A DNA stretch of 64,000 nt, taken from Isoetes taiwanensis (lineage: Eukaryota; Streptophyta; Lycopodiopsida; Isoetales; Isoetaceae). Under the pieces are notes generated by a model, which saw nothing but the letters and a program-made list of their open reading frames with translations, searched no databases and was not told the DNA's origin. The stretch's first letter is position 1. Every line of letters starts with the position of its first letter. The stretch is taken from NCBI GenBank assembly GCA_021234155.1, contig JAJEKV010000213.1:124001-188000 (forward strand), in the 5' to 3' direction. A program made the translations under genes and the position numbers. This document shows positions 1 through 54,299 of this stretch, piece after piece.

Positions 1-1002
1 GCCCACACGCAGTGGCAAGCCATCAGACCTAGTCACAATGATCCGTGGTAGGCTTTACACACCAGAGGGATCGTTCAAGAGTCAGGACATGAACCTCCTT
101 CTCAGCCAGTCTGGCCCCTTCACCCACAACCCGGTGTGGCTGCGACACGTGCCAATCTATAGTGTGCTAGAGAGGCTACTCTAGGAGCATCTACTACCAA
201 GCTTTAGGTCTCTACCCCCCTTCCCAATACAAGGGGTTCATAGAGAAACATCATCCACATATTATGTAAGAACTAAAGAACTATATCTAATCTACATCAT
301 AGAGTTAGGTTCTTTAGTTAGAGGCTGGCATCTAGAGATCTAGAAGGTCGCTATGGCCAATTTAATAGGCTAAACCACCGATTCTATGACTGAAATAGGG
401 TTTAGACTATCTAATTGGCCAAATACCTGATCCTTGAGTGGCTCCTCCTGACCTGAGCTCGACCATCCTGCTGAAACGCTCGAATCAAGGGAAACTAATG
501 GTGCAATTCTCCCAGCAGAAGTTCTGGAGGCGGTTTTGGCTGTTGAGGCAGCCAAAACAGAGTTCTAAAGCCCTAGAAACTAAAATGGGCAAGTTAGGGT
601 TTCTCACCCTAAATAGACAAGGGGTGGTTAGGGTTTCCAATTATCCCCTTTGGCATGTGGGATAATTGGAAATGGGCCCACTTGCCTTTAAGGGCTAGGT
701 GGCCAAATGTGCCCACATGGAAATGTGTGCATTAATGAATGTGTACATTGGAAAATGTGCACATTAATTGCACCTATGGGTGTGGCCCACTTGGCATGAA
801 ATGGCCATATGGGAAAATGTGCACCTAAGTGAATGTGCACATTGTTTAATGTGCACATTAATAAATGCACACTCCTTGCGCTGCGTTGCCCCTAGGGCTA
901 CTAACCTAGCTACACGCTACGCACACGCCACCGTGGTGGCGGTACGCGCGGACGCAGGCAAGATAGGCGCGCCCCGGGCGATAATCGCGGCCGAACGTCA
1001 CA
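1..1002 (-). repeat. 3' LTR of G1, truncated by window edge
   Basis: It aligns almost end to end with 14,648-15,667. On the minus strand it begins TGTGACGTTC, and its other end is outside the window. The two LTRs differ mostly at CAG/CTG sites, for example position 51 (CCGTGG against CCCTGG), 349 (GGTCGC against GGCTGC) and 376 (ACCGAT against ACTGAT), plus short indels. The last 140 bp (860-1,000) are the most divergent and GC-rich. Short direct repeats of ATGTGCACATT-like sequence occur at 720-870. Confidence 0.9.
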
Positions 1003-1016
1003 TTCTCCCCACCTTG
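1003..1016 (-). other. Polypurine tract of G1
   Basis: On the minus strand this reads CAAGGTGGGGAGAA, directly 5' of the TGTGACG start of the 3' LTR. That is the expected place and composition of the plus-strand primer of an LTR retrotransposon. Together with the tRNA primer site at 13,989-14,000 it fixes the element's orientation. Confidence 0.75.
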
Positions 1017-1382
1017 AAATGATGTTGTCCGCGGCATCGTGGGTCTCCCCACCTTGGGATCATCCTAACCTGCAATCAACTAGATACATACGATAACTAC
1101 TATAATACTTACACATTTATTACGATTACCTTAAGGTAATATTTTTAGGACATTACCATGCCGTTATATTATGAAATAACTTATCAATTCATACATTATT
1201 AAAACAGGTTACTCAAAAATTCACTTGACATGACAATTAAGTTTATCAAAATTAAAATTAACGTCCGAGGTACTCTTCATTCCTTGCAACACATTCCAAC
1301 AAAATTTGTGTTGCAAGTCTTCGTAGCTCGACCTCCTTGCCCTCCGGAGCGCTCTATTGGCCTGCAGGTCGACACTACGTTA
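1017..1382. other. Non-coding spacer between integrase and 3' LTR
   Basis: This is AT-rich sequence with no convincing reading frame. A GC-richer part at 1,260-1,380 borders the chromodomain stop. I see nothing else in it. Confidence 0.5.
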
Positions 1383-2965
1383 TTAACCTACACAAATCGA
1401 CATGCCTGAGCCGATTTCTTCGGAGATGACCTTGCCGTCCCATTGCTCCATAAACTGTGGGTACTGCTTTACTAAATCTTTCTTAAGTACCCACGTCAGC
1501 GTCTTCCATCGGCAAGTGTTTCCACTTGACCAAATCTTTGGAGGAATTCGATCTCCTCGTTTTCTTGAAAGCTTTATCAAGAATCAATTCGAATTATTTC
1601 CAACTGCTTCCTCCGCCATTTCCAACAATGTTGAGTGTCCAAGACTTCGCCCTGATTGGGAGTATGCTTCTTCAACAAACTTACGTGGAAGACTTTATGA
1701 ATCTTTAGGTGTGCTGGCAAGTCTAGCTTGTAGGATTGATTGCCTACTCTCTTGACTATTCGAAAGGTCCAGCCCACCTTGGAGCAAGCTTCTTGCAATT
1801 CCCCGATCCCGAAGCTTTTGCTCGCTTTTACCTTGATCTTGAGCCAAACATCATCTCCAACTTTGAACTCTCTCATTTGTTCGATGCTTGTCTACGATGC
1901 TCTTCTCGACGACTTCTTTGCCGCCAGATACCCTCGAACTTCTTCCACAAGCCGCCGTGATATCGGCCAACATTTGTCGCGAAACTTCCACTTTTGACGG
2001 GGGTTGTGCCAAGTGTCCCGAGTTAGGCAATCGATAGCCGAATTGATCATAAACGGCGACATTTGGGATGATTCCCGCTTGGTGCTATTGTATGCAAACT
2101 CCACCAAGTGAATAAATTCTTCCCACATACCTTGCTTATTCCGCATATAGTTTCAGAGCATGTCTTCTAAAAATCCTCGTTGGTCCGCTTCCATTTGGCC
2201 ATCCGTCTCGAGGATGATATGCCGCGGCTCATGGATAGCTTCGTCAATCGTCAGAAGAGAGGTCTTGCCGTAAGGCACTCATGAACTTCGATCCCTCGTG
2301 GGAGATAATCTCCCTTGGCATGCCATGAAGCCTCAAGATCTCTTTGGTGAAGAGCTTCACTGTATCCATAGCCAGACCGTGGTCCCGCAAGGCACAAAAT
2401 GTGCCATTTTCGACAACTTGTCGACTACTACCATCAACGATCTTTCCCTCTTATGGTCCTTGGAAGTCCTGTGGATGAAATCCATGCTAATCACCTCCCA
2501 CTTAGCGCTTGGCACCGCTTAATGGCTTCTAATGCTCTGGAATTAAGCCGCCTCCGCCTTCGTCACGACATAGCCGGTATTTCTCGATGTAGCGAAGCTA
2601 CTTGCTTCTTCATTCCCCGCCAATAATAGCTGCCGCGACTTTGAAATATGTTTTCATGAACCCGCATGGCCAGCTATTGGGCTGTTTGCGTGTCATGGAG
2701 GATCAATTTCCTTACACCGATGATTCGGCACGCACAACTTGTTCTTATGGTATAACAGGTTGCCTTCCTTCTTATAATGTTTAAAGGCTTCCCGCTCCTT
2801 ATCTGTTCTAGCCTCCCTCGAGAGGCTTGCCCATACTTCCTTGAAATCCACATCCGCTGGCAAAGACTCTTCAATCTTCTTACCAAAGTCACTGGAGAGC
2901 GCCGAAATTGCATTGCAATGCACTCTAGTTGTCGTGGAATGCCTTGAAAGCGCATCTGCTACCAC
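1383..2965 (-). pseudogene. G1 integrase with C-terminal chromodomain, frameshifted
   Basis: The end of the pol polyprotein lies in several minus frames. 2,965-2,693 starts with VADALSR, the linker after RNase H, and continues into the integrase zinc-binding region (GNLLYHKNKLCVPNH). 2,146-1,892 holds the end of the catalytic core (EFAYNSTKRESSQMSPF). 1,876-1,577 holds the C-terminal domain (FKVGDDVWLK, then RIVKRVGNQSYKLDLP and IHKVFHVSLLKK). 1,580-1,383 holds a chromodomain tail (LTWVLKKDLVKQYPQF), with LVKWKH visible in the next frame at about 1,530. The D,D-35-E residues were not all located because 2,150-2,690 is broken. Known role: insertion of the cDNA, with the chromodomain guiding it toward particular chromatin. 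Confidence 0.85.
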
Positions 2966-2989
2966 ATTGAGCTTCCCCGCTTGTAGACT

Positions 2990-3480
2990 ATATCAAAGTC
3001 ATACTCTTCAAGGAACTCCATCCACCTTCTCTGCCTTTAGGTTGAGGTGTGGTTATGTGAATATACATACCGAGGCTCACGATGGTTCAGATCCAATTGG
3101 AACTTCCTTCCCAACGGATAGTGCCTCCAAATTCTTAATGCTCTGACAACCGCAAGCAATTCCTGATCGTGCGTTGGGTAGCGCGTTTTGGCCGTCGTTC
3201 ATCTTCCTGGAATCATACGCTACTACACGCTCTTCTTGCATGAGCATTGCCCCAGTAGCTATCTTTACTTCGGGCCCGCCGCTACAAGCTTGTCTTTCTC
3301 CGGGTCCGCAGTGGTTAAGATCTGGGCGGTTGTTAAAGCTTCCTTCAACAATTCGAACCGCCAAGGCTTTCTTGTGCCAGGCTCAGCCCAATCTTTCACC
3401 TTCTACCCCGCTTCTCGTCAAGTCTGTTAATTGGGCCGCTATCTTAGCAAAGTTCTTCACGAACTTCTCAGAGTACCACT
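2990..3480 (-). pseudogene. G1 RNase H domain
   Basis: The minus frame 3,364-3,077 contains IATGAMLMQEERVVAYDSRK, which matches the gypsy-type RNase H pattern (a vague 'G.vL.Q....i.Y.S.kl' core), followed by MNDGQNALPN, the equivalent of the usual 'a..nY...EkE'. The D.S nucleophile region upstream is altered. It sits correctly between RT and integrase. The frame is lost at both ends. Confidence 0.8.
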
Positions 3481-4200
3481 ACTGCTAGGAGGAAACTTCG
3501 ACTTCATGCACATTCTTTGGGCGCCGCCGAATAATGGCGGCTTCAATCTTTGCGGGGATCCGCCGAGATGCCTTCTCACGAGATCACATGACCGAGATAC
3601 TCCACCTTCCCCTCGCTATGGCGGCACCGACAACTTGGCGCATAACCGGTGCCTCCTCAACTTCTCCGGCCTCTTCTCAAGTGTTGTCTGCGTGTTCTTC
3701 AAGGGATCTGCTATACACCAAAATGTCATCAAAGAAAACAATCACAAAGGTGTCTAAAACTCCTCGAAGATGTCGCTCATGAGCCTCATGAACGCCGCGG
3801 GGCATTCGATAGTTTAAAAGGCATTACCGCGGAACTCATAATGCCCATACCGCTCTCAAGGCTGGTCTTATGGATATCTTCTTTCTTTATCCCGATCTGA
3901 TGATAACCGACCTTAAGTCAATTTTGGAGAAGACCTTTGCACCTTGGAGTTGATCCATCAAGTCATCCGATCCGGGAGCGATACTTGTTCTTAATGGTGT
4001 GCTTATTCAACTGCGCTATAGTCTATGCACATTTTAAACCGCCATCCTTCTTCTTAACGAAGAGAATGGGCGCTCCAAATGGCGTAAACACTAGGTCTAA
4101 TGAAACCTAGGTCAAGCAGCCCCTCGCAGAATCGCTTCTTTAGCTCCTCGACAACTCCCCGTTGTCATTCTATATGGAGCCTTGCTTGTTGGCTTTGTTC
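3480..4200 (-). pseudogene. G1 reverse transcriptase domain, heavily frameshifted
   Basis: Recognisable pieces in order on the minus strand are GAPILFVKKKDGG (about 4,085-4,045; RT domain 1), YGHYEFRGNAF (about 3,855-3,820; the equivalent of 'YEF.VMPFGL') and the adjoining CPAAFMRLMSDIFEEF (about 3,810-3,765; the 'NAPATFM..MN..F' box). The region of the catalytic YxDD-type motif (about 3,740-3,700) reads through broken frames and I could not see it intact. It lies between the protease remnant (4,270-4,669) and RNase H. Confidence 0.82.
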
Positions 4201-4269
4201 CTGTTCGAAAAGTGCTATCTTTCGACTCCCTTTATAAGGAGGGAGCTGCTTGATCTCATCCGAAAGAGA

Positions 4270-4669
4270 TCATGGAACTCCTCGCGGATCAGCTTTAGCT
4301 ATTTGCTTCCGCAACTTGTCGAGCACCTTGTCTTCTTTGCTTCCTTCCGATTCGCCACTAATCTCAAGCTTGAAAATGTATGCCACTTGCTCACTCTTGA
4401 TGCACTTGGAACAGCCGTTTAGAAGACATACACCGCATGATGGGAACAACTTCCTTGCCGCGCTATATCTCAATAATCTTGCCGTCGGTGTTGGGAAGGT
4501 CACCTTCCGCAAGGTTCCCATAATCGATAATGGCCCCCGCTGGTCCAAGGTACTCCATTCCTATAATCAAGTCGACTTGCCAATGCCCATTACTTTAGTG
4601 TTTCAACTTCCCCATCTGGGGGATATTAATCCCCGAGTCGCAAGTCGAAGGTCGGTTAATTCTCTCTCT
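4270..4669 (-). pseudogene. G1 retropepsin remnant and link to RT
   Basis: Minus-strand translation near 4,600-4,500 gives VDLIIGMEYLG followed by GAIIDYG. This is the C-terminal flap and substrate-binding part of gypsy aspartic proteases (the 'DvIlGmdWL..h.a.Idc' pattern). The active-site triad lies upstream, where the nested LTR element interrupts at 4,670, and I did not find it. The frame 4,548-4,270 carries the less conserved link to RT. Confidence 0.65.
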
Positions 4670-5150
4670 TGTTAGATAGACGTTAGTGGCATAGGCCACA
4701 TGTCATCATAGTTAGTGGCACATGGCCACATGTTGTCATCATATAGGGTTGGGGTTTGCTCACTATATAGAGCCCCTTGGGCATTAAGTCCCTAGTGGCA
4801 TTTGGCACCCATGTTGTCATTTGGGTTAGGGCCTCATTTTGAGAAGGTTTTAGCTCATTGTGAAGGTTTTTTCACGTTTTGGGCCTCATTTTGTGAAGGT
4901 TTTAGCTGTTTTGGAAGGTTTTAGCTCACGCCTCTCATTTTGTGGAGGTTTCAGCTCACGTTTTGGGCGCCTCATTTTGGCAATATGATCCACTTTGTTC
5001 ATTTCTTGGCATTTGTGCCTGTTTGTGTTCTTGGGTTTCCTCCCCCTTTGTTTTGTCATTCTTGAGCATTTGTGGCAGCCTTGTTGCATCCGGCTGACCA
5101 TGGTGGTGCTTTGCTGACAAGGTGCATGCCAAGAACCCCATATTTCAACA
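4670..5150 (+). repeat. 5' LTR of nested element
   Basis: About 480 bp, starting TGTTAGATAGACGTTAG and ending ATATTTCAACA. Inside are several short tandem copies of a unit like CTCATTTTGTGAAGGTTTTAG (4,830-4,970). The other LTR carries the same array with a different copy number, which explains most of the length difference. A possible TATA box (CTATATAGAG) is at 4,762-4,771. Confidence 0.85.
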
Positions 5151-5175
5151 CCGGGCGCCCGTCGATGCGGGTTCG
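5151..5175 (+). other. Candidate primer-binding site of nested element
   Basis: The sequence directly after the LTR reads CCGGGCGCCCGTCGATGCGG and then GTTCG. Its complement resembles a tRNA 3' end including part of the T arm. I cannot say which tRNA. The first bases may be miscalled from CTGG. Confidence 0.45.
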
Positions 5176-7837
5176 CTCAAGAATTTCTTGATCCTTCTTT
5201 GTTATCTGTTGTCTTCTTTGCTCTCATGGTTCTTGATCTTTGAAAACTTTGTGTACACTACTCTAAACTCTTTTCCCTTTGCCCAACCAGGCTGAATTGT
5301 CCGGAGGCCTTCTTTGTTCATTTGCCCAACCGGGCCGAATTGTGCGGAGGCCCTTTGTCTTTCAAATCAAACCCGGTGATGATAAGCCGGTGATCCAATC
5401 AATCTTGTTCAAAAGCTGTTTTCAAAACTACGTTCTTCAATTGCGGCAAGCACGATTAATACGTTTACGGCATTTTGGAGTGGTGATGACACTTCATTCT
5501 TGAAAAAATTTTCAGAAAAATGGGTTTCTCACAAGCTTTTTTCGTCCCATTTACGTGCGGAGGGGCGTTTTCTTTGAAAAAGCGCCAAAAATATCATGCT
5601 TTTTCTTTGCCTCACGAAAGCTTTTTTTTCGTCCCTTTTTGGACTTTTTGCTGCTTTTTGTTTAAAATTTCCAAAAATATCCTCTGTTTTCTTTGTCTTA
5701 CGTCATCTGCAAGAAACTATGGGTTATCATACAATCAGCCTGTTTGAAGCGTGCCAAAGGAAGGCTCTTGTTACTCTTGTTACAAATTTTTTCAACACTC
5801 TTCAACAATCATCTTCAAGAAAGCTTGGTTCAGCATTCAAAGCATTCAAAGCATCTCGCAACAACAAATTATCAACACATCGCACAACAATCTACATTTC
5901 GGATCATGCGAGTTCTTGTTCTAAATTTTCAAGAGGGCCGACTTGGGCTAGCCCCCATTCCTCTGTTCAAGCCTATAGAGGCTGCGGCAACAACTCAATC
6001 GATCATCAAGCACATCCACGAAGACTACGGTCGAATCTATCGCAAAAAGCTTTACAACAATCAAATCAACACAACATTTCAGGTATTAAGTTTTTAGGAG
6101 GGCCAGCACCTTGGGCTAGCCCCTTTCCTCTGTTCAAGCACACAACAAAAGAAAACGGCGGCCGGTTTATTTTTCAAGCAAGCAAAGATCTCTCGGCAGG
6201 ACATTTGGCGCTTCGGTTTGGCTGGTGCGCAACATCCGCAAACAAATCTTCAAGTCGACTCATACGCAGCAACAAACACGGCATGCACAAAAAAAAACAA
6301 GCACAAAGATTAACATGGGTATGCCTCGGATTCGATGTCTCCGGATCTAGTATTTTCAAGAATCGATGTTGTTTTTCACCGTTGAAGCAAGAAGCACAAA
6401 CATCCCACTAGCGGGCGGGCGCCTTCAAATCCAACCACCGGTTCGGTCTCTGCATTACGGCAAATCCGGCCACCATTTGCAGCGAATCCGATAAATATAG
6501 CAACTAAGCGTGTTGCTCCAACCAAATCAGCTGCCCTTGTGCGAGAATCATGCAAATATCTACCATCAAACTCGTCTTCCAAGCAAAAACCGGCCCAATA
6601 GCTCGGATCGGCGCCATTCTTGGAACTCCAAAGAACCCACTATGTTTTCAAGCAAATCGGCTATTGAGCCCGGGATGCCAAGATTCAAAACAAAAACAAT
6701 CGAACTTCTCGGCTATTTCAAGCCGCTAGGCCATTTTGACACCAATCCGGCCGCCTCTCAGATTCAAGCGGTACATCAACAAAATCGAGTTACAAACTTC
6801 AGTAGCGGACCCATTTTTGTTGTTCTTGTTGCGGCCAGACCGCCTGGTGAAAGCGAGTAAAAGATTTTTAGGGCAATTTTTTGTTCACGGCTAAGATTTG
6901 GCCGCCCAGCTCTATGGCCCAGATACACTTACATTTTAGGGCATACACTTTCTCACGGAAGTTCATGCAACGGCCCACCCTGCAACACTTTCATCACGCC
7001 CAACCGGACAGCGGCTAGAACAACTTATTTGGTCAACACTTATTTTCCCTACTCAACCACGGGCCATCCGCGCTTATTTGGACCACTTTGCAATTTTTCC
7101 ACTCTTACCCACGGGCCACGCAGAGGTACTTGAAATCTTACCCACGGCCCGCCACGCTTGAAAATCATTTGCCCATAGCCACTCACGCACAGGTGGAGCA
7201 CGCTTATGCACGCCCACGCTAGTCATTTTACCCACGCTGTTAACACACGCACATGTTTGTCACAACCAACCACGGGCCTTGTTAAAACCCACGCCCCACT
7301 ATTTTTTGTTATGTGCATACTCTAACACTTGACACATTTGGCCCACGGTAACTCCTGCAACTTTTTTCCAGCCCACCCACGAGCTACACTTTGGCAGCTT
7401 TTTTTGGTCACGCCCAACCAAGGGCCCCTCTTGCCAAGCATGGGCCCACGCCCACGGTTCACACTTTGAAATACTTTTAGCAACACTTAAGGGCCACGCT
7501 TTGAACCCTTGCAAGTTTTTCTCACGCCCACCCACGGGCCATCCTTACACGCTTGTCCACGCCCGTGGTTGATATTTGGTGCTTACATTTTTGAAGACCC
7601 TCTATCATTATTTTAAGTTGTATTTTTGCCACTATTGGTTACAATTGCCTTCCCCATGATATAAGGGATGGCCATCATTATTTATTGCCCCTATGTGATC
7701 TACACGGCATCAACATTCTTTTTGATCTAATTCGTCACCAACACCTTGAAGAAGACTTTTTGGCAAATATTTTTGTTACTTCCCCTCCGTTTTTGTAAAC
7801 ATGTCAAACCTAATATTATAAAGGTTTGCATATAGTG
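5176..7837. other. Non-coding internal region of nested element, with CCCACGGGCC-type repeats
   Basis: No coding similarity is visible. From about 6,950 to 7,570 a degenerate unit built around CCCACGGGCCA and CACGCCCA recurs roughly every 40-70 bp (for example 7,060, 7,107, 7,143, 7,269, 7,440, 7,530). The segment at 5,270-5,350 has a short direct duplication (GCCCAACC.GG..GAATTGT.CGGAGGCC). A second short duplication, GCTAGCCCC.TTCCTCTGTTCAAGC, is at 5,946-5,970 and 6,113-6,138. Confidence 0.6.
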
Positions 7838-7855
7838 AGGTTTGGTGGGGGGGAG
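7838..7855 (+). other. Polypurine tract of nested element
   Basis: AGGTTTGGTGGGGGGGAG lies immediately before the TGTTAG start of the right LTR. Position and composition fit a plus-strand primer. Confidence 0.7.
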
Positions 7856-8310
7856 TGTTAGCCCCTTGGGCTAAGTCATAGACGTTAGTGGCATAGGCCA
7901 CATGTCATCATAGATGTTAGTGGCACATGGCCACATGTTGTCATCATATAGGGTTAGGGGTTTGCTCACTATAGAGAGAGCATTTCCCCTCATTGTGAAG
8001 GTTTCAGCTCACGTTTTCCCCTCATTTTTGAAGGTTTCAGCTCACGTTTTGGAGCGCCTCATTTTGTGAAGGTTTTAGCTCACGTTTTGGAGCGCCTCAT
8101 TTTGTGGAGGTTTCAGCTCACGTTTTGGAGCGCCTCATTTTGGCAATATGATCCACTTTGTTCATTTCTTGGCATTTGTGCCCTGTTTGTGTTCTTGGAG
8201 TTTCCTCCCCCTTTGTTTTGTCATTCTTGAGCATTTGTGGCAGCCTTGTTGCATCCGGCAGCCATGGTCTGCTGCAGCAAGGTGCATGCCAAGAACCCCA
8301 TATTTCAACA
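7856..8310 (+). repeat. 3' LTR of nested element
   Basis: 455 bp, parallel to 4,670-5,150 over its whole length. It begins TGTTAGCCCCTTGGGC, which the left LTR has only partly, and ends TTTCAACA. It shares the tandem CTCATTTTGTG.AGGTTT units (7,985-8,130). Sequence differences from the left copy again include CAG/CTG positions near 8,255-8,275. Confidence 0.85.
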
Positions 8311-9684
8311 CTCTGTATCTATTGCGGCAAAGATATGACACTCACCCTGAATGTAGTCGCGGGCTTTCGCCGCCGCCGTCGAACGAACCAGTGTCCCAAT
8401 CCCCAATTCGCTAGCCGCACTCATGGCGTAAGGGGCGCCACGGCCCTATGGCCTGGCTGGAAGCACGAAGCAAAGCCGCTTTTCTATGCACTCTGTCTCT
8501 TTTCTTTGGGCATCCTTTTGAAAAAGGATCGCCCTTGCTTTGGAGTAGTTTGACCCCCCCCGCTTGTCCTTGAAGGACACGTGCTTCTTCTCTCGCTGTT
8601 TCCCTTGGTTGCCACCATATGGGGGCTCTAGCCGGACACGATCGGGTCTCTAGGGCTATAGCTCCCTCGTCGCCTTGCCTTTGTCCCGAAATGCTGCTTT
8701 CGCCTCGCTATCCCGAGGTCCCGTCCCTTGCAAGCTTATAGCCTTGGACTCTCGCCGATCTTGTCTTGGGGTTTATTGCCCTCACAAGCTTGCTTGGATC
8801 TCCTCATTCGACCCCTCAATATAGCTTTCTCTGCATGCTTCTCACCCAATTTCGGCACATCTGACCTCGGCCTCATGAATTCCCTCGTATACTTCTGGAC
8901 AGATTTGTTGCCTTCTTTGCAACCAATAGAGAACTGCTGCATCATACTAGACTTATGTTCCCTCGGGACGAATGGCGCTTTGAAGGCTTTAGCAAACTTT
9001 ACGAACTTACAAGCATCCCCGCAAGCCATGTGCCTTTGCATAACCCTTCCACCAAATCCGTGCGGCTCCTTTCAAGTTGGTTGTTGCCACTCTTCCTTTG
9101 TCTTTATCCTTCATGCCATAAGCATTGCCGTACTCACTCATCTCGTCCAGCCATGCCTCTCGCTTCTAATCGACTGTTCTCCCCGAGCTGTTTCGATTCG
9201 GGCCTTCCATACATTGCCCGGTCGCGGAATCTACCTTCTTACGGTAGTCGAGGCCCCGTGTCCCTTTGTCGTCCATCTGGGGTGTTTCTCTGCCTTCCCT
9301 CTTGGTGTTCCTTTGCCTTCCATCTGTTGTTCGTCCGGGCCCGCTCTTCCTCTTCCTGAGAGTGAGTCTGAGTTCGAGCTTGAGTCGGAGGGATCCGAGC
9401 TGGGGGATCTCCTTCTCTTATTCCTCTTCTTGTCCCTTCCCGTTTTCCGAGCTGATGCTTGTGGCAATTGAGCATTGCCCACCGAACCTCGCCTCCGCTT
9501 GTGTGGCTATGTGAGCCTTTATCTGTTCTGTGTCCGTCCTCATCCGGGATATCTCCTCCTCCGGGGTCATGGGTTCTATTTCTTGAATAAGTTCCTTGCG
9601 GGGGGGTGGTCCGGGCGGGGTCTGTTCTTCCCTAAGGTCTTGGCGTTGTCGCTCGCCTGAGCCTAGGCCTCTAACTGCATACAC
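8311..9684 (-). pseudogene. G1 gag, frameshifted
   Basis: A start at 9,684 opens a frame rich in P, E and R (PPGPPPRKELIQEIEPM), followed by a charged stretch in two frames (9,475-9,231). The frame 9,041-8,736 contains FVKFAKAFKAPFVPREHKS and SVQKYTREFMRPRSDVPKLG. These match the retrotransposon gag core ('f...l...f.p......f..l.qg..sv.eY..ef..l'). Near 8,500 a KGCPKKRDR piece suggests the remains of a zinc knuckle, but the full CCHC pattern is not seen. The nested LTR element cuts it off at 8,311. Confidence 0.72.
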
Positions 9685-9853
9685 AAGTAATTCATGGCTA
9701 TATGGTTATTTTTACTTGTTCTCTTGCATTGTTTATGGTTTGTTGGCATAATTGTGGAACAAAATATATCAACAAAACATTTAAAGTGCAAATGTAGATT
9801 ATATTCATATATTATATAATATTTTAGTACAAAAAGTCTCCGGGATCAAGAGT
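9685..9853. other. AT-rich gap between cargo gene and gag
   Basis: There is no reading frame. AT-rich runs (ATATATTATATAATATT at about 9,810-9,830) could serve as a 3' end for the upstream gene or a promoter for gag. This is inference from composition only. Confidence 0.4.
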
Positions 9854-11387
9854 CTAACTAGTCTTGAAATCGCCCGGAAGACGGGTTGTCCTCAAGGAAC
9901 TTCTTAACTTGGGCGTTCTCCTACCGAATGACCCAAGTTCTGAAGACGCTTTGCTCGACGAGCCATTCCGCAAGGCTCTCGCCAAGTCTTCCACTCTGCG
10001 CGGTCGGATGTGACGGCCGCTGCCACCGCTTAATCTCGCCGCCGTCGATGAGGTATGGCTTAAGTCGAAAGAGGTCGAAAGTGCCATTGCTCTCTTGACT
10101 AGGACAAGATAGTCGACATTTGGCGCTATCGCGAGCATGCCGCCGAAGCCTGAGAGTGCAATCAGCATGAACACTCCTTCCTCACCTCTGGGGCTGAACT
10201 TGCGGTATATCACCGCTACTCTCCCGTCCATCAGCAGCGGCAAGTAGTACCTCGGGGATGCAATGGATTTGTCGCGCCATTGTTGATTCTCCACTTGTTT
10301 GGCCTCCACCACGGCCACCATGATGATTCGGTCGACCTCGATCCCGGTGAGCTCCCGTGCATCTTCGATTGTGGAGTCAACTCTCCTGAGGTCAATTCCT
10401 GCTCCTCTTGTGGGAGGTGGTGTTGAGGGACTCGGCATCAGGATGCTAGTGGTCTTGCCTCTGATCCCCAACCGTTTTTGAATGGCGAGGAACTCTTCTT
10501 CAGACGGCAGGTCTCTGGTCTCCATGACTTGCCTTATGTCGCTATATGCCCGGATGCTCCAAGTCGCCCCATTGTAGGTGTCGGCTTCTCTGACTTGAAG
10601 CGGGAAGTCTGAGACTCCCCGGACGATGAAGTCGTCCATGTCGGTTTGCCGCAGCTGGTGGAGCAGTTCATCCAATCTGATCTCCCTCTCCCTGCATTCG
10701 GGGAGGTTCTAGATGTCGCTGAGAAGTAGGAACTCCTCTCCGTTGATGATGATAGGGGCTAGGCTTGTGATGCCTAGCCCGAGTGGGGGAGCAACTCTGA
10801 TGCTCTGCCGGCTCCGCTCGAAGTTGATCAGCTCCTGCTCTGCTTGGCGCCGTTCTTCATCCGAGTCGAGCTCCGTGTATTCCTCGTCGTCCGACTCCTC
10901 TTCTTCTTCTCTTGCTTCTTGTTCCTGCTGATACTGCAGAAGCATCTGCTCTTCTGCTTGGGCTGCTATGGGGTCCACCTCCATCGGAGGGATAGAGGTT
11001 GCCCCCATTGGGTTTTCGGCGCGGTGGGATAAGAAGATAGCTAGGGCAGCGGTGTAAGAGAAATACTTGGTCTGTTGGTCGTCGGGGACCATGTAGTCCT
11101 AGCGATCTGCGCCTTGTTGGTTAGGTACTTGGCGATGTTGGGGACATCGCCAAGGTCTTTTGAAGGGATGGCCGGGGAACGAAATATCCTATGCAAGGGG
11201 GAACCTGAACAAGGGAGGGTCCTACCCTAGCTTGAAACTCTGCTAGCACTTGCCTATATGCCGGGGTTGCATTTAGCGTAGCTTGGATATCAATTTCTTT
11301 CCCAAAGACTTGGAAGATGTCGTTGACATCCGCCTCGGCAGCATGGGCACTGGCGCTGTACCATCGCCCGAAGTCAGCAGTGGCCAT
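9854..11387 (-). CDS. G1 cargo gene 2: unrecognised protein with acidic segment
   Basis: Three minus-strand frames follow one another: 11,387-11,121, 11,092-10,709 and 10,675-9,854. Small frame changes at about 11,110 and 10,690 suggest a single gene of about 490 residues broken by indels. The first ATG (11,387) lies about 115 bp below a TATA box (11,510-11,501). The middle part is strongly acidic (EAREEEEESDDEEYTELDSD and onward, about 10,900-10,850). The last 270 residues look globular (RGVSVSDFPLQVREADTYN-like region, then GMLAIAPNVDYLVLVKRAMA) and end in a basic tail. I do not recognise the family. Acidic tracts of this kind occur in histone chaperones, which is suggestive beside an H3-like gene but is not evidence of function. 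Confidence 0.6.
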
Positions 11388-11500
11388 TGATCTAGCAAAG
11401 AAGGGGGTAACAGACGGATGCGAAGCATTTAAGGAGCTGGAAGATCGCCTAAGCAGTTGGAGAGCAAATTTGGGGTGGTGCTAAATGAGAAATGGGGGAC

Positions 11501-11510
11501 TTATTTATAG
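11501..11510 (-). promoter_or_regulatory. TATA box of cargo gene 2
   Basis: The minus strand reads CTATAAATAA, 114 bp above the ATG at 11,387. The spacing fits a plant core promoter with a short leader. Two 68-bp palindromes lie further upstream. Confidence 0.6.
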
Positions 11511-11687
11511 AATTGGGGGAAACCCTAATTTTTGGATGATCTAGAATTTACTGAGATTAGGTGATTCTAATCTATTAAAGAGTGAAATTGCAAGTTTGAA
11601 GACTACTTCTAGGGTTTGAGCATGCTAAGAACAACTAATGAACCTATTGCAACAACTTGGAGATCATTTGGTGAAGAAATGGTACGA

Positions 11688-11755
11688 GGTCTCACACGTT
11701 GCGCCCAGCCCGAAATTGAGAAAGTCATTTCCTGTCCTGGCGCGACGTGTGAGAC
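11688..11755. repeat. Palindromic repeat, copy 1
   Basis: The left arm GTCTCACACGTTGCGCC and right arm GGCGCGACGTGTGAGAC are inverted and separated by about 33 bp (CAGCCCGAAATTGAG...). It is one of four copies, and two stand upstream of each cargo-gene TATA box. Confidence 0.85.
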
Positions 11756-11886
11756 ATGGGTTCTAATTGGGCTAAACTTAATCAATTGGAATAATCTAAG
11801 GCTGTAATTCTACTAAACTCGTCGAGTTAGGCAGAATTGACCCCTTATTTGGTCGATTTGGAGCTGTTTTGGGCATTTTTGGGCAT

Positions 11887-11954
11887 GGTCTCACACGTTG
11901 CGCCCAGCCCGAAAATGAGAATCTCATTTTCTGTCCTGGCGCGACGTGTGAGAC
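11887..11954. repeat. Palindromic repeat, copy 2
   Basis: It has the same arms as the copy at 11,688, spaced 199 bp from it start to start. The loop (CCCGAAAATGAGAATCTCATT) itself contains the short inverted repeat AATGAGATTCTCATT, present in part in the other copies. Confidence 0.85.
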
Positions 11955-12100
11955 ATCGTCTCCTTTTTGCTCAAAAGCTCCAATTTGACTAAAACAAAAG
12001 CTAGAATTCTATAACTTAACTTAATTAAGCTAGATCAGACATGTTATTCACTCCCAAAATTCTTTATATTAACAAAATTTTCAGTTATTTACAAAATCTT

Positions 12101-13340
12101 CAAGGGCGTTCCCCCTTGATGTGACTGGCAAGATGCATATCCTGCTTCATGAGGGTGACCCTCTTTGCGTGTACCGTGCAGGCCGTCGAATCTTCAAAGT
12201 GCTGCACTATTTTTGCCTCTGCTGCCTCCTGTAAGCACAGCAACATTTCATCCGTCACCCGCATGTCTGTATTATACTCCTGCATGACCTCGCGGACCAA
12301 ACGTTGAAACGGTGCCCGGGGAATCAAGAGTCCGTAGCTCCTCCGAAGTGCGGTTCCTTGAGGGCTCATTCTCCAGCTTCTTCCTGCCAGCCCGCTTCTT
12401 TCCTGGTGCTCTGGGAGGCTTGGGCTTTGGTGGGGGTGGCTTCAGAGTCTGCTTCGGGGGTACTCCACCTTCGACTGCCCTCACCCGATGCTCCTGAAAG
12501 TAGGCATTATATGCCTCCCACTTCTCCATGTAGATGCTGTGCTCCTTAATTCTCTTCTGATAGACCTTGACAGGGTCTATCACATATGCCTCCCGTTGTG
12601 GTCGTGGGGCTTTAACCCTATCCCACGTCGGGAAAGGTGGGGGCTTCGCTACCTGTCCCGCCTCCTCCTGCTCCTGTGCTACCTTGGGGCACTTCCTTCT
12701 CTACAGGCGGGGGTTTTGACGAGCTCGCTCCTTCCGTGCAGCACGTAGTCCCTCGTCCGGAAAACCGTCGGTGGGAGGCGGGGGTCTCTTAGCCTGATGG
12801 TTCGTTGATGTTGATCCGTTCCAAAACGCGACCTTCCGCGACCTTCCTTTTGCCGCCTTAATGGCTTTTGGCCTTCCCTCTTCTTAGGCTTCTTTGGCGG
12901 TGGTCGGGTCGTCTTCCAAAACCTCTTAGATCTTTGCTCCCGGCGGCTCTTTGGCCATTACTGGCGATGAAGCGGCGCCAAGATCTTCTTCTGCCGGGGC
13001 TAAGAGTGTTTGCCTGCTCTTCTCTCCCTTGTTTCCTCCACGTAGGTGGGTCTCGGTAGGGGGTTGCTCTGGGGTGTTGGCCCGCCTATGCGCTCCATTT
13101 GCTCCCTGCTTCTTCTCTCCTCCTCTAGCGATCTCTCAAGGATTGATTGCATGATGTCGGCCCGATTAGGTCCTCTATGAGCTCCGTATAGTGGCTAGAT
13201 CGATCCTGCATCCCATTTCGAAGAAGATTAAGCCTTCATGGAGAAAAGGCGTTCTCGAGAGACTCTCTGAAAGAGGCCGGGCGGGGTTGGAGGATCCGCT
13301 TCGGCCAGGCTTCCTGGCACCATTTGGTGCGGGCCATCAT
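12101..13340 (-). CDS. G1 cargo gene 1: histone H3-like protein with long basic N-terminal region
   Basis: The frame 12,369-12,100 encodes the C-terminal histone H3 fold: helix 1 PFQRLVREVMQEYNTDMR, helix 2 LLCLQEAAEAKIVQHFED, then TVHAKRVTLMKQDMHLASHI and the terminal GERP, followed by a stop. Loop 1 has the canonical H3 length, not the longer loop usual in CENH3. The alpha-N region is shortened (GTALRR then SYGLLI). Upstream frames on the same strand (12,583-12,272 and others up to 13,337) are proline/lysine/arginine-rich (LKPPPPKPKPPRAPGKKRAG). An ATG pair at 13,340/13,337 starts MARTK, the same five residues as canonical H3. If these belong together the protein is about 400 residues, three times normal H3. 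Several frame breaks lie between 13,240 and 12,370, so introns, decay or sequencing error are all possible. Expected role if functional: nucleosome assembly. Confidence 0.85.
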
Positions 13341-13439
13341 TTGGTGGTTCGTCGATCGGAGCTAAGCGCCGGAAGATCGCCTTGGCGGACACGAGCAATT
13401 TTTCTAAGGCAAGAACGTGGAAATGGGAGGGGTCTAGGT

Positions 13440-13449
13440 CTATTTATAG
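13440..13449 (-). promoter_or_regulatory. TATA box of histone H3-like gene
   Basis: The minus strand reads CTATAAATAG, about 100 bp above the ATG at 13,340. Its position relative to start codon and upstream palindromes parallels that of cargo gene 2 (TATA at 11,501). Confidence 0.6.
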
Positions 13450-13522
13450 GGGTCAATTTTAGGTCAACTTTTAAACTACCTTTTTGGGTTGCCTAAAACA
13501 TCTAAAACACCTAATTAAGCAA

Positions 13523-13594
13523 GGTCTCACATCGTTCTTGCCCAGCCCCGAAAAATGAAAAAGTCATTTCCTGTCCTGGCGCGACGTGTGAGAC
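13523..13594. repeat. Palindromic repeat, copy 3
   Basis: GGTCTCACATCGTTCTTGCC and GGCGCGACGTGTGAGAC form the inverted arms. The left arm is altered against copies 1 and 2, whereas the right arm is identical. It lies 74 bp upstream of the H3-like gene's TATA box. Confidence 0.8.
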
Positions 13595-13728
13595 ATCGTG
13601 GGACCCACTACTAAATTTTGTACTTTTGGAACATATAACATGCTAATTCTACTGATTTTTAGCTCTAATTTAGATTTATCAAGTTATTTTACTGTAATTT
13701 ACAACTTTTTGGTGTGTTTAAGCTGAAT

Positions 13729-13794
13729 GTCTCATTGCGTTGGGCCAAATTTAAAATGAGAATCTCATTTCTCGGCAGACGACACGTGTGAGAC
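13729..13794. repeat. Palindromic repeat, copy 4 (degenerate)
   Basis: TGTCTCATTGCGTTGGGCC and CAGACGACACGTGTGAGACC are weakly matched arms. The loop keeps AAAATGAGAATCTCATTT as in copy 2. It is the most diverged of the four. Confidence 0.6.
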
Positions 13795-13988
13795 CATTCC
13801 CTACTTTTTGGATGTTGGCTCACCAATTTTAGTCTTTTTACGTTTTTATTCATTTTAACTGTTACTAGCTTAGCATCTACCACAAAAATGAGAAAAAAAT
13901 TTCCCCTTTTTCGAGGTTTAAGGATCCTATCAAGTTAGTACTACTGGGCACATGGCCAGTGCTTTTGCTCTTGGTCACCAAGAACATT

Positions 13989-14000
13989 GCTCTGATACCA
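13989..14000 (-). other. Primer-binding site, initiator tRNA(Met), G1
   Basis: The minus strand reads TGGTATCAGAGC, one base after the CA end of the 5' LTR (14,002). This is the standard plant LTR-element primer site complementary to the 3' end of initiator methionine tRNA. It proves that 14,002-15,667 is the 5' LTR and that G1 reads on the minus strand. Confidence 0.9.
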
Positions 14001-14001
14001 C

Positions 14002-15667
14002 TGTGACGTCCCCTACTCGTATACGGTGCACTCACCGTATACAAACAGGAGTTCATCCCCCATACCAGCTCCATGCCTGTGGGGCCCTCCACATAACACC
14101 GCAACCGTGGACGGGTTCGATGGGAAGAGTGAAGGGTCATTTACCCCATCTCCCTCAGGGTCTACCTAGCTGCGGAAGCGTAAACATACATGTCAGTATA
14201 TAACATAAGCACATAGCCACCTCGAAGGGTGGTCCATCACATCTGCATAAACAAGGTGAGCACAATACATATGGGGAGTTCTACCCAAGGCTCAGACTCA
14301 AGGGAATGACTGACGGCTTGGGTCTCCAGAGATCATTGCAGACAGAATTCATGGCAATGGATTTGGCTGGCATAAGAACATGGCATAGGGTTGTCCACTC
14401 CATCCGCCCCTCCTGTGCACACTTTGCAGAGTAGGTTGAAAAGTGTTGGGACCCGACTGTAGCCCGCCGGATGCATAGCCAAAAGGGCTATTCCTGGGTT
14501 CATCCTCCCAGTTCCGATGGGGCAGGTAGGGATCACTCCCTCCAGAGGTCTACATGCTGACTCAAGGTGACTAGAGGGCCACTGCCCTTCTTCGACTGAA
14601 CCCACTGGAAAGTGAACACCACTTCACGGGTGTCGAGCCCATGCCTTGCCCACACGCAGTGGCAAGCCATCAGACCTAGTCACAATGATCCCTGGTAGGC
14701 TTTACACACCAGAGGGATCGTTCAAGAGTCAGGACATGAACCTCCTTCTCAGCCAGTCTGGCCCCTTCACCCACAACCCGGTGTGGCTGCTGTACACAGG
14801 CCGAATCTATAGTGTGCTAGAGAGGCTACTCTAGGAGCATCTACTACCAAGCTTTAGGTCTCTACCCCCCTTCCCAATACAAGGGGTTCATAGAGAAACA
14901 TCATCCACATACATTACAGAAGAACTAAAGAACTATATCTAATCTACATCATAGAGTTAGGTTCTTTAGTTAGAGGCTGGCATCTAGAGATCTAGAAGGC
15001 TGCTATGGCCAATTTAATAGGCTAAACCTACTGATTCTATGACTGAAATAGGGTTTAGACTATCTAATTGGCCAAATACCTGATCCTTGAGTGGCTCCTC
15101 CTGACCTGAGCTCGACCATCCTGCTGAAACGCTCGAATCAAGGGAAACTAATGGTGGAATTCTCCCAGGCAGAGTCTGGGAGGCGGTTTTGGCTGTTGAG
15201 GCAGCCAAAACAGAGTTCTAAAGCCCTAGAAACGAAAATGGGCAAGTTAGGGTTTCTCACCCTAAATAGACAAGGGGGGTGGCTAGGGTTTCCAATTATC
15301 CCCTTTTGGCATGTGGGATAATTGGAAATGAGCCCACTTGCCTTTAAGGGCTAGGTGGCCAAATGTGCCCACATGGAAATGTGTGCACATTAATGAATGT
15401 GTACATTGGAAAATGTGCACATTAATTGCACCTATGGGTGTGGCCCACTTGGCATGAAATGGCCATATGGGAAAATGTGCACCTAAGTGAATGTGCACAT
15501 TGTTTAATGTGCACATTAATAAATGCACACTCCTTGCGCGTTGCCCCCTAGGGCTACTAACCTAGCTACACGTTGGCGTACACGTCGGGTCGGGTGGGCG
15601 GTATGCTGCGTGACGAGGCAAGATAAAGATTATGCCCCTGGGGCGATATCGCGGTTGGAACGTCACA
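14002..15667 (-). repeat. 5' LTR of G1 (1,666 bp)
   Basis: On the minus strand it runs from TGTGACGTTCC (15,667) to GGGGACGTCACA (14,002), a TG...CA repeat whose ends are themselves inverted (TGTGACGT/ACGTCACA). It matches 1-1,002 and, inverted, 15,690-16,358 with 19,738-19,946. A diverged copy of the same family is 54,813-56,455. Confidence 0.9.
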
Positions 15668-15689
15668 TGGACGGATGAATTCTGTGGAC

Positions 15690-16358
15690 TCATTGTATTG
15701 GGAGGGGGGGTAGAGACTTAAAGCTTAGTAGTTGATGCTCCTAGCTAGTCCCTCTTAGTGCATTACTAGATTTCGGCCTGTGCACAAGAACCACACCTGG
15801 TTGTGGGTGAAGGGGCCAGACTGGCTCAGAAGGAGGTTCGTGTTCTGACTCTTGACCGATCCCTCTGGTGTGTAAAGTCTACCGAGGATCAATGTAAACT
15901 AGGTCTAATGGCTTGCCACTGAGTGTGGGTAAGGCATGGGCTCGACACCCGTGGAGTGGGGTTCACTTTCCAGTGGGTTAAGTCGAATAAGGGCGGTGGC
16001 CCTCTAGTCACCTTGAGTCAGCATGGAGATCTCGGGTGGGAGTGATCCCTACCGCCCCATCGGGCGGGAGATGCAACCCGTGAATAGCCCGCTTGGCTAT
16101 GCATCCGGTGGGCTACGGTCAGTCCCAACACTCTTCAACCTACTCGCAAAGTGTGCAATGTGGGGGGCGGATGGAGTGGACAACCCTATGCCATGTTGTC
16201 ATGCCAGCCAAATCCATTGTCATGATTCTGTCTGCAATGAACTCTGGAGACCCAAGCCGTCAGTCGTCACCTTGGGTAGGAACCCATATGTATTGTGCTG
16301 ATCTTTGTCTATGCAGATGTTGATGTACCACCCTTCGAGGTGGATATGTGATGATGTT
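15690..16358 (+). repeat. Plus-oriented LTR of the G1 family, first part, 5'-truncated
   Basis: This is the reverse complement of about 14,220-14,880 and begins in mid-LTR (ATTGTATTGGGAGGGG). It stands head to head with the G1 5' LTR across a 22-bp spacer (15,668-15,689). At 16,358 it is split by a terminal-inverted-repeat element and resumes at 19,738. Confidence 0.85.
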
Positions 16359-19700: not shown

Positions 19701-19737
19701 ATGATTCGCTCCCGTTTAATACGCAACCTTGTTTGTT

Positions 19738-19946
19738 ATGTACTGACATGTATGTTTACACTTCCGCAGCTAGGTAGACCCTGATAGAGACGGGGTAAAA
19801 TGACCCCTTCACTCTTCCCACTGGGACTCGTTACGGGTGCAGTGATATGTGGAGGGCCCTGTATCAGCATGGAGCTGGTATGGGGGATGAACTCCTGTTT
19901 CTATATGGTGAGTGCACCGTATACGAGTAGGGGACGTCACAGCAGC
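19738..19946 (+). repeat. Plus-oriented LTR of the G1 family, last part
   Basis: It continues 15,690-16,358 after the insertion and ends GGGGACGTCACA at 19,942, the LTR terminus seen at 14,002. No primer site follows; LINE A sequence begins at once. So this LTR is solo or was cut when LINE A arrived. Confidence 0.85.
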
Positions 19947-27650: not shown

Positions 27651-28461
27651 TGGAGGCGCAGGAGTAAACATCATGACTAATGTTTTTAGAAAAAAACTTA
27701 AATTGCATGACTTACAAAAAGCGCCATTCGATGTGAAAATGGCAGATCATCGAAAAGTGGAACCTGTAGGTATGTTTTTACGATGTGAAAATGGCAGATC
27801 ATCGAAAAGTGGAACCTGTAGGTATGCTTAAAAACATCAGTTTCTCTATTGGGAATTTAGAGTTTGAACAGGATTTCATAGTCTTAGAGACAGATCCTAA
27901 AGCAATAGATTATCAACTATTGCTCGGTAGACCCTGGCTTAGGGCCTCCAAGGCAGTCCATGATTGGTCAAACAATACTCTGACTCTAGCAAAACAAGGG
28001 AAAGAGGCTATGATCAATTTACGGACTGGAAATATAACCATTATGCAAGAAGAAACATTGTTCTCCGATGAAGAAGATGAGGACATTGAGGAAGGAGTAA
28101 TGGACGAAATTGTCGACGAAGATAATTTCGATGGCATTGATATCGACGGTGAATCGGATGAATTATACTTTAGGGTGGAAGAAACAAAAGAGTACCCTAA
28201 ACATTTCGTGGAGGCAGTGGAAAAAGAAATTACTTTGGAACCAACAAAAGCTCACAAGTTGGAAGATGGAAAACTTGTTCCATCTATGGGACTCCCAGAG
28301 CTAACAGAGCGAAACTTAGGAACAGAAGAAGAGCCTAAATTCATCAAGATTGGAGCTCATCTTCCACCTGTCCTTTTACAATGTTCTCTTTTGTTCCTTG
28401 TTATCTTTTGTTCCTTGTTATCTTTTGTCCTGTTATCCCAACCAAAAGTTAATAATGCTTT
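27620..28461 (+). pseudogene. TR1 aspartic protease, copy 1
   Basis: VPVDGGAGVNIMTNVFRKKL is the active-site region (DGGAG in place of the usual D-S/T-G-A). YQLLLGRPWLRASKAVHDW is the second conserved block of plant gypsy proteases. A 45-bp segment is present twice (27,729-27,773 and 27,781-27,825), which breaks the frame, so gag stops at 27,829 and the protease reopens in another frame. After IKIGAHLPPVLL the frame continues into unrelated hydrophobic sequence, with no RT. At 28,461 the 12.35-kb transposon interrupts. The second copy is 51,040-51,850. Confidence 0.85.
27729..27825 (+). repeat. 45-bp direct duplication inside the protease
   Basis: GATGTGAAAATGGCAGATCA...GGTATG occurs twice, separated by 7 bp (TTTTTAC). 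It repeats the codons FDVKMADHRKVEPVG, adds a frameshift and splits the polyprotein. Confidence 0.92.
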
Positions 28462-28492
28462 AACCATCATCCAATTAAATTGGGATTATGTC
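28462..28492 (+). repeat. Left terminal inverted repeat of D1
   Basis: It begins AACCATCATCCAATTAAATT and ends TTATGTC. The inner CCAATTAAATTGG is itself palindromic. It differs from the right end at positions 10 and 24 only. The CTTT target duplication precedes it. Confidence 0.95.
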
Positions 28493-29100
28493 AACTCCAA
28501 AATCACGCCAACCTGCTATTGTCTTCTAGGGGGTTTTTGTTTTTTTTAATCTTTTTTTTTGGACTTCAAAAATAACATAAGGTTGCGATTCACGTGTGAC
28601 TTTTCATATGCGAATTGAAATATGTAGAAATGAAGAGCAAGTTGCTAACATAGATGAGACAAATATTGCTTGCTCAATAGATGATAATATTAGGTTTGAT
28701 AATAACAAATTGCATTATTTTATGAGGCAATTCGGACGAAAATTATCGATACATGGCACAAATATCATACAAAATATATCATATATTCCAATAAAACATT
28801 AAGGGATCAATCCATGTTTTTCCACGTATTTAACAAGGTGTGGTTCCATGTCACCGTTCTATCGGTTTGGGTACCGAATCTAACACTTCACCCACGGGTC
28901 ATCCCCATAGCCAAATTATGCATAATAGACACAAACTTCACGTAGAAAATCATCTCATCCCCAAAGTTTTGGATCGTGAAGATGGTGGATTGTGGGCGTG
29001 TGTTTGATTGTAGAAGCATTTGAGAGCATCATCATCCACTATGATTATATCATCCTTATTCTCGATACCAAGTTAGGTCCATCATGTTACTCAAGTGTTT
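28493..29100. other. D1 left subterminal region
   Basis: This is AT-rich non-coding DNA. A short plus-strand frame at 28,596-28,802 is probably chance. Possible continuation of the minus-strand gene's 3' end lies at 28,880-29,100. Confidence 0.4.
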
Positions 29101-43461: not shown

Positions 43462-44340
43462 CATAAGAATATGGCAACGAATAGAACGAACAGACATAAC
43501 CTGTTCTCGGCCGGAACCGTCTGCGCTTGCATCTGGACTCCCTTTCGACTGCTCTTCTAACCTGTGATCCAACAAGCAATCTCCAGTGACTGCCAGACCG
43601 ACCTCTTCAGCGATTCCAGATCCGGCAACCAGGTAAAAAATGCGGTCCATGATTGTTTTTAGGATATGGTTCTTTGCCATCTTGTGAGCATCGATGGAGA
43701 TTATTTTCGGTGGTTATGTGGTAGACAAAAGGCAGAAATCATTCTCGGCAATGTTCTATTTAGAAGTTAATCTGGTTCATGAATCTGATCACGGGCTATA
43801 AAATCTGAGTTTCCACAGTTCGTTTTGGTTATGATAGAACGAAGAGATTGTTACGGATATGCTTGTGATTATGGAAACTTGTCTCTGGTTATCTGGTCAT
43901 GAAAATAATTATTGTGGTGTATGTCTTGTGATGCAGACATGGATGTGATTGAGCAAGGAAACATAAAGGAAACTATTAACTGGATAGACTACCTGGACAG
44001 CCCTTAACGGTAAGATAGACTTACCTGGCTGTATGTTCTTATTTTGCAAAGCTGTTACTCCAGGGTGAGAGACTGGAGGGTTAACAACTGTACCATTTAG
44101 CTCTTCATCCTTTAATTCGCTTACAACCTGAACACCCTCTGCTGCTTTCGGATTTGCTGTCATGATTGATTGCCATCTGTGCAAATCAGCTCTAATTTCT
44201 GATGCTTTATGCTCCATCAACTCAATCTTTCTTTTGATATCATTTTTCCTATCCTCGTTTGCTTGCAATCGTTGCTTGCATCTATCAAACCTAGTTGATG
44301 TTGCAGCCAACCATTCCTTCACAAGTCTGCCATAGTCTGC
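43462..44340 (-). pseudogene. Gene-derived segment R, copy 1, with a coiled-coil exon
   Basis: On the minus strand a TTTTGTTTTGCAG acceptor (44,337) opens an exon of about 130 residues: DYGRLVKEWLAATSTRFDRC, then KRKIELMEHKASEIRADLHR (helical, coiled-coil-like) and SIMTANPKAAEGVQVVSELK. The frame runs on to 43,909. Below it, 43,900-43,462 has no long frame. Because the same segment occurs three times and joins the exons at 56,575-57,290, it is read as the 3' part of that gene. The protein family is unknown to me. Confidence 0.6.
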
Positions 44341-44403
44341 AAAACAAAACACTGCGTATATGTCAGCTTCCTAACATAGTAAGCCACGTACTAATGGAAG
44401 ACC

Positions 44404-44955
44404 ACAATCACACACCACACAACACACTCTCTACACACCACCACATACCACACACCACACAATATACGCTGCACAGTACACACCACACAACACACTGTGG
44501 TGGTAGCAAGGAGTGGTGGGACATTGTGCAGGGTGGTGAAGTGTGGTGGTGGTGTGTGGTGGTGGTGGTGGTGGTGGTGGTGGTGGAGTATGTGGTGTGG
44601 TGTGGTGTGGTGGTGGTGGCGTGGTGGTGGTGGGGTGTGGTGTGGTGGTGGTGGAGTGTGGTGGTGGTGGAGGAGTGTAGTGGTGGTGGAGTGTGGTGGA
44701 GGGGTATGGTATGGGACATGGTGGAGTCGGGTGGTGTGGTGTGGTGGTGGTGGAGTGTGGTGGTGGTGGAGGAGTGTGGTGGTGGTGGTGGAGTGTGGTG
44801 AAGGGGTGTGGTGTGGGACATGGTGGAGTGTGGCGGTGGGAGATGGTAGAGTGTAGTCGTGGGAGATGGTGGGGTGTGGTGTGGGACATGGTGGATGCCA
44901 ACAATTCACCATTCACCAGACCACACATACCTCATCTATCATTCTGGCATACATT
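44404..44955. repeat. GT-rich minisatellite with CA-rich inverted start, copy 1
   Basis: 44,404-44,500 is CA-rich (ACACACCACAC type) and 44,515-44,890 is GGTGGTGTGGAGTG-type repeats, so the two parts can fold back on each other. Higher-order units of about 60 bp (GTGGTGGTGGAGTGTGG...) are visible. It lies in an intron of the minus-strand gene, between the exon at 44,336 and a GAG/GTATGTG donor at 44,931. The dense GG runs could form G-quadruplexes on the plus strand. Confidence 0.85.
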
Positions 44956-50830: not shown

Positions 50831-51039
50831 ACTTGACATGTACATACACATTTATTTCATGATGATGTATACTTGTACAGTTTGACAGCATTCTTATTAC
50901 TGCCACGGTTTTTCCCTCGAAAACCCTTTCAAGCGGGGTTTTTAACTTGGGACAAGTAATAAGTTTCTTTGCGCTCCTTCTGGGTCCCATAGGCCGATTG
51001 GTCTCAGTGGACGATAAAAAAAACTATTCTATTCTATTC
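50831..51039 (+). other. LINE B 3' UTR and (CTATT)n tail
   Basis: A pyrimidine-rich 3' UTR ends GACGATAAAAAAAACTATTC, with four CTATT units. The following TGGGAATTTAG continues TR1 exactly where copy 1 reads CTCTATTGGGAATTTAG (27,846), so the junction shares the bases CTATT. Confidence 0.85.
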
Positions 51040-54245: not shown

Positions 54246-54299
54246 GTCTGCAAAACAAAACACTGCGTATATGTCAGCTTCCTAACATAGTAAGCCACG

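Follow-up and report, generated by a model that had tools for sequence, protein, structure and literature searches.

A Ty3/gypsy chromovirus lineage in Isoetes taiwanensis carries, as a long-standing and selected gene of its own, an open reading frame with the fold of histone H3. The product of this gene, which we call ORF1, is almost certainly a selected, H3-like protein encoded by the element, and the preservation of both the fold and the H3 tail suggests that these elements make their own chromatin protein. The initial annotation of the window (the whole stretch of 64,000 nucleotides that was analysed) had described an H3 variant that evolves within the element and is not a fresh capture. 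This description holds up, as ORF1 is present in many copies, at the same place in the elements examined for this, and with dN/dS far below 1.

The element in the window is a Ty3/gypsy chromovirus, with an LTR pair, a target-site duplication, a primer site and a domain order that includes a chromodomain. It occupies positions 1..15667 on the minus strand, as delimited by the LTR pair and the order of coding relics, and is truncated at the left edge of the window, with about 650 bases of its 3' LTR lying outside. LTR alignment places the 5' LTR (1666 bp, ends TGTGACG...CGTCACA) at 14002..15667 and the portion of the 3' LTR within the window at 1..1002, both on the minus strand. The two LTRs are 93.6% identical (1684 columns, 45 gaps), with a K2P divergence of 0.064 over 1,645 sites. 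A 5-bp target-site duplication, GTCCA, lies at the 5' LTR (15668..15672, minus strand) and recurs after the 3' LTR, beyond the window edge. The primer binding site TGGTATCAGAGC, read beside the 5' LTR at 13989..14000 on the minus strand, is of what we take to be the Met-tRNA type.

Between the LTRs, all on the minus strand, lie relics of ORF1 (12100..13337), of a further frame that we call ORF2 (9861..11420), of gag (8832..9705), of protease/reverse transcriptase/RNase H (2992..4633, with a short start piece of the region at 8311-8400 separated from it by inserted sequence), of integrase (2075..2983) and of an SH3-like domain plus chromodomain (1389..2071). The parts were identified by Pfam in a related copy (L015/L016). 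This copy has PF00125 in ORF1, no Pfam match in its open ORF2 of 528 aa, PF03732 in gag and, in pol, RVP_2, RVT_1, RNase H, integrase zinc finger and core, SH3_Tf2-1 and Chromo; the window relics are collinear with its coding order. Among the 120 protein matches listed for the reverse transcriptase region, identity ranges from 45 to 67%, and those with names come from plants or green algae. As a separate observation, the protease/reverse transcriptase region is interrupted in the window copy by about 3.7 kb without pol similarity (4634-8310), in which 60-bp identical direct repeats lie at 5035-5094 and 8200-8259; the 3.7-kb sequence is probably a nested insertion.

The window copy of ORF1 is broken, and uninterrupted copies exist elsewhere in the genome. 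The initial annotation had placed an H3-like gene on the coding strand of the element between the primer site and gag. The placement is right (primer binding site at 14000-13989), with the correction that ORF2 sits between ORF1 and gag. The minus-strand frame at 12369-12100, open for 89 aa (12103..12369, stop 12100-12102), matches PF00125 well above the cut-off (E = 1.1e-22; 81 bits against 26.4) and solved H3 chains in the PDB (best E = 8.8e-23). The long Pro/Lys/Arg-rich N-terminal part that had been noted is also present, but in the window it lies in a different frame from the H3 part. Upstream of it, ORF1 starts with ATG GCC CGC ACC AAA, the ATG being at 13337 with an additional ATG immediately ahead at 13340. 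This start had been read as possibly MARTK, and it is indeed a conserved H3 tail in other copies, although the window tail is disrupted by an indel.

How widespread is the gene? We searched 1,658,258,908 bases in 1,110 contigs and found that the copies of ORF1 number at least in the hundreds. A genome-wide search gave 8,672 candidates, of which 150 were scored; 142 of these 150 were open across the fold, a fraction that is not unbiased because the scoring favours good copies. Uninterrupted ORF1 was recovered in 27 tail-anchored copies of 393-451 aa. Intact copies share one order. They begin with MARTKQTARK, which a long linker with many K, E, R, P and S residues connects to a conserved block (KAPRPQREAYV...YNAYYQEHRVR..EGG); after this block come a Pro-rich stretch and, last, the H3 fold. 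The recurrence between 5' LTR and gag that the initial annotation had posed as a question is borne out, as the position between the primer binding site and the ORF2-gag region is constant in all 11 copies examined for placement. We also read the expected place at four reverse transcriptase loci outside the ORF1 lists and found the H3 fold in three (one of them decayed); the fourth showed ORF2 at that place and does not bear on the question. A one-off capture was rejected on copy number and dN/dS. A search of the protein database gave 741 matches among 7,999 scored candidates but no full-length relative of ORF1; the 120 matches listed cover 20-42% of the query, and their names, where given, are mostly histones.

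ORF1 is under strong purifying constraint in some parts and much less in others. Among 21 sequences of subfamily A (Nei-Gojobori, 210 pairs), dN/dS is 0.01 for the tail, 0.06 for the fold and 0.08 for the mid block, and it rises to 0.26 for the linker and 0.30 for the Pro-rich stretch. Two further subfamilies, B and C, with three sequences each, give fold values of 0.08 and 0.11 and no amino-acid change in the tail; silent sites between subfamilies are mostly saturated. The use of open copies removes stops, yet this choice should not produce dN/dS this low. Values near 1 had been named as the sign of passive cargo, and across copies they are far below it. The tail and the fold are each strongly constrained while the linker is free, a pattern that is expected of a fold-anchored chromatin protein acting through its tail.

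From A1 to K9 the tail is, in most loci, that of H3 to the letter. We surveyed 33 loci plus the window. For 27 of the loci a text search for the tail served as the anchor, a choice that is biased towards intact tails; on this basis the exact A1-K9 tail (ARTKQTARK) is found in 28 of 34 loci of the A-C type. MARTKQTARK is exact in 25 of the 27 anchored loci, the exceptions being one R2C and one A7V, and the six loci aligned without a text anchor comprise three exact tails, one T3R and two indels. On a tree of the 27 ORFs, tail codons 2-10 show 5, 1 and 43 changes at codon positions 1, 2 and 3, and the five position-1 changes are all in Arg codons, so that four of them can be silent. The corresponding counts are 478, 473 and 981 for the linker, which starts at the very next codon, and 102, 56 and 330 for the fold. 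The residue after K9, which is S in H3, is P in 23 of the 27, V in three and T in one, and the remaining hallmarks of the H3 tail (S10, K14, K27 and K36) are absent from the ORF1 copies compared. Genome-wide, the tail pattern occurs at 1,051 sites (516 + 535) and the reversed pattern at none. This count is of tail matches only, with Ser accepted for Arg, and may include host H3 genes, of which we recognised 15, a number that may miss genes with introns near the start.

The fold is supported by profile, structure prediction and fold comparison. The full-length AF2 model had a pLDDT of 52.6 and no PDB match, and we used the model of the domain alone, a good one but one built from an alignment that contained canonical H3s. 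Residues at the H3-H3', H4 and DNA contact positions are mostly kept in ORF1 folds. The DNA-contact residues R72 and R83 and the L2 loop are retained, but other DNA-contact residues are changed in all 26 A-C folds (K53H, R63P and F84V), with K79 and R129 altered too. With a pI of 8.7-9.7 in four copies, the fold is basic; the linker of subfamily A has pI values of 5.6 and 6.6.

ORF1 also has a promoter-like sequence of its own. The TATA box claimed for the H3-like gene was found as TATAAATA at 13441..13448 on the minus strand, 111 bases ahead of the MARTK ATG, and a second TATAAATA box lies at 11502..11509 on the same strand, 122 bases ahead of the ORF2 ATG (11387). In the window plus ten A copies chosen for a long ORF1, these distances are conserved, at -108 to -113 before ORF1 and -121 to -123 before ORF2 (11 of 11 in each case). 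Repeat comparison located 70-base palindrome-like repeats upstream of the ORF1 promoter (13527..13596, with a second, more diverged copy near 13725-13793) and of the ORF2 promoter (11688..11757 and 11887..11956). A 10-base mark of the repeat is present before ORF1 in 9 of the 11 copies and before ORF2 in all 11. The repeats could be regulatory elements common to both TATA boxes, and from this arrangement we infer that ORF1 and ORF2 would have separate transcripts. ORF2 is itself a second extra protein ahead of gag, fast-changing and without a Pfam match, and it was also located on the minus strand at L015:3411-4994, L060:5790-6851 and L061:3828-4526.

How did the element come to carry an H3 gene? 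The tail-bearing copies form three subfamilies, A, B (L042-L044) and C (L045-L047). B and C have the tail in common with A but mostly not the linker, their ORF1 being 39-42% identical to the first A sequence, and they emerge from within A in a tree of the fold. In one C copy we found gag, integrase and chromodomain along with an ORF2 that is 49% identical to that of A. A genome search with canonical H3 returned the 15 host H3 genes at 90-91% identity to the query and 135 other scored loci at 68-82% identity, with alignments starting at residues 3 to 35. Four of these 135 loci were read (L056-L059), and they define families D and E, with open frames of 441-567 aa. Their folds are 85-88% identical to host H3, compared with 50-60% for A-C, and all four carry E105G and lack MARTKQTARK. 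In place of the tail they have a different N-terminal part of about 250-300 aa, which is conserved in its own right and matches no Pfam profile. The fold is constrained here too (D pair, dN 0.010 and dS 0.65; E pair, dN 0 and dS 0.21).

Family E, and probably family D, belongs to the same kind of element. Downstream of ORF1, one E copy has an ORF2 that has diverged to 24% identity with that of A (E = 2e-7), gag, a reverse transcriptase 79% identical to that of A and an integrase zinc finger, in a layout that matches that of A. Between ORF1 and gag, this E copy also resembles one D copy, in stretches that are 71% and 54% identical. In the unrooted fold tree, A, B and C form one clade (100/98) and D and E another (98/92), the latter on the side of canonical H3, while the reverse transcriptases of A and E are close to each other. 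The gene may go back to a single old capture, after which it changed fast in A-C, or it may have been replaced later. D and E keep the fold without the tail, and therefore some use of the fold must be independent of the tail.

The components of this lineage, a chromovirus chassis and an H3 fold, are of known kinds. With plant chromoviruses the element has in common its LTRs, primer binding site, gag, protease, reverse transcriptase, RNase H, integrase and chromodomain, to which it adds ORF1 (an H3 fold, with the exact tail in A-C), ORF2 and the internal TATA boxes. Host H3 has both the A1-K9 tail and the fold in common with A-C, but in A-C a linker of about 300 residues stands where H3 has its residues 10 to about 46; D and E differ from it by the missing tail and by G at E105. 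The influenza protein NS1 is a viral histone mimic with a short H3-tail-like motif only, a tail-like motif in a foreign protein, whereas ORF1 joins tail and histone fold in one protein.

Another parallel is the H4 of bracoviruses, which is reported to join host nucleosomes and to act through its tail (PMC5423620, PMC9145170). Like ORF1, it is a single core histone from a mobile or viral genome, and ORF1 is under constraint; unlike ORF1, it is an H4 and comes from a DNA virus, whereas ORF1 is an H3 from a retrotransposon and has a long linker between tail and fold. In the 2022 review of viral histones (PMC9145170), 'retrotransposon' is absent and 'transposon' and 'transposable' occur once each, in other senses. 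The initial annotation knew of no LTR retrotransposon with an H3 variant, and in the open-access literature searched we likewise found no report of a transposon-encoded histone. Transposons are mostly viewed as targets of chromatin marks, and a core histone with a selected, exact tail would make the transposon a direct actor on chromatin. The ORF1 family is also a natural, much diversified set of H3s with the tail set apart from the fold. It opens to test how mobile elements act on H3K4 and H3K9 marks and whether a foreign histone can join the nucleosomes of a plant host.

What might ORF1 do for the element? On balance we favour an element-encoded H3 variant that acts in host chromatin. ORF1 would be made from its own internal promoter, would pair with host H4 through the kept fold and would be placed in or on the chromatin of the element or of its target; that it pairs with H4 or enters chromatin is probable. 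The free tail, in which residue 10 is P, V or T and not S, would then meet the host writers and readers of H3K4 and H3K9, an engagement that we consider fairly likely. The likeliest purpose would be to disturb host silencing of the element, with ORF1 serving as bait or taking the place of a nucleosome component, although we put forward anti-silencing as its main purpose only tentatively. Against the chromatin model count the DNA-contact residues changed in all A-C folds and the D and E folds that do without the tail. The VANC proteins of VANDAL transposons, which counter silencing, offer a functional analogy only, that of an anti-silencing transposon protein; VANC proteins bind DNA sequences, unlike the action proposed for ORF1. 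More speculatively, and with confidence somewhat short of even, the element H3s and host H4 may form transposon-specific chromatin that the H3K4/K9 machinery mistakes for the host's. A-C and D-E would then be two solutions within one lineage, with the gene diversified over at least hundreds of copies.

Several other functions are conceivable. Chromatin-bound ORF1 might guide the integrase, for example if the chromodomain reads the methylated tail. The element's integrase does carry a chromodomain. However, in an alignment to the aromatic-cage positions of HP1, this domain keeps the tryptophan without the other two cage aromatics, and thus lacks the three that mark group I. The partnership of H3 variant and chromodomain suggested by the initial annotation is therefore unsupported by sequence, and the loss of the cage makes a simple self-recognition of the tail less likely. 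PMC3350952 reports that group I retrotransposon chromodomains, such as that of MAGGY, read H3K9me, and describes group II/Galadriel chromodomains with an incomplete cage resembling the one found here. We regard integration targeting as unlikely. We hold the same view of a soluble decoy, in which ORF1 would stay outside nucleosomes and titrate host H3-tail enzymes or histone chaperones. The conservation of tail and fold as two parts and the replacement of S at residue 10 would suit such a decoy, but it has no obvious need for the kept DNA-contact residues.

Less probable still is a role in packaging, with a basic histone-fold protein condensing element RNA or cDNA in particles or before integration. 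The pI of the fold fits this role; yet the subfamily A linker is not strongly basic, the exact H3 tail is left unexplained, and a nucleocapsid seems to exist already, given the CCHC knuckle in gag of 6 of 10 A copies. It is very improbable that ORF1 derives from CENH3 and marks or targets centromeres. The stretches ALKEIRHFQ and LLIPRAPF resemble CENH3 (compare P0078 and P0097), but the tail is that of H3 and not of CENH3, and loop 1 is as long as in canonical H3, one residue shorter than in the two CENH3s compared. Measured against these two sequences, neither of them from the host, the fold is 46-56% identical or less, which is no nearer than to host H3 (50-60%), and it does not group with them in the tree. 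A search of the genome for host CENH3 returned only the 15 host H3 genes and other H3-like loci. Finally, ORF1 might be passive cargo, the functionless remnant of a histone gene picked up on a single occasion. This would suit the broken window copy but is exceedingly improbable given the many copies, several subfamilies, constant place in the copies examined and low dN/dS.

The window holds further repeats. More LTR-like pieces of the same family adjoin the element in inverted orientation (19734-19942 and 14289-16284) and may be solo LTRs or fragments of LTRs. At 27770-28549 and 50993-51847, about 23 kb from each other, are two protease-like retroelement frames that are nearly identical, and long simple repeats, open in several frames and with a flank in common, are found at 44300-44930 and 54200-54890.
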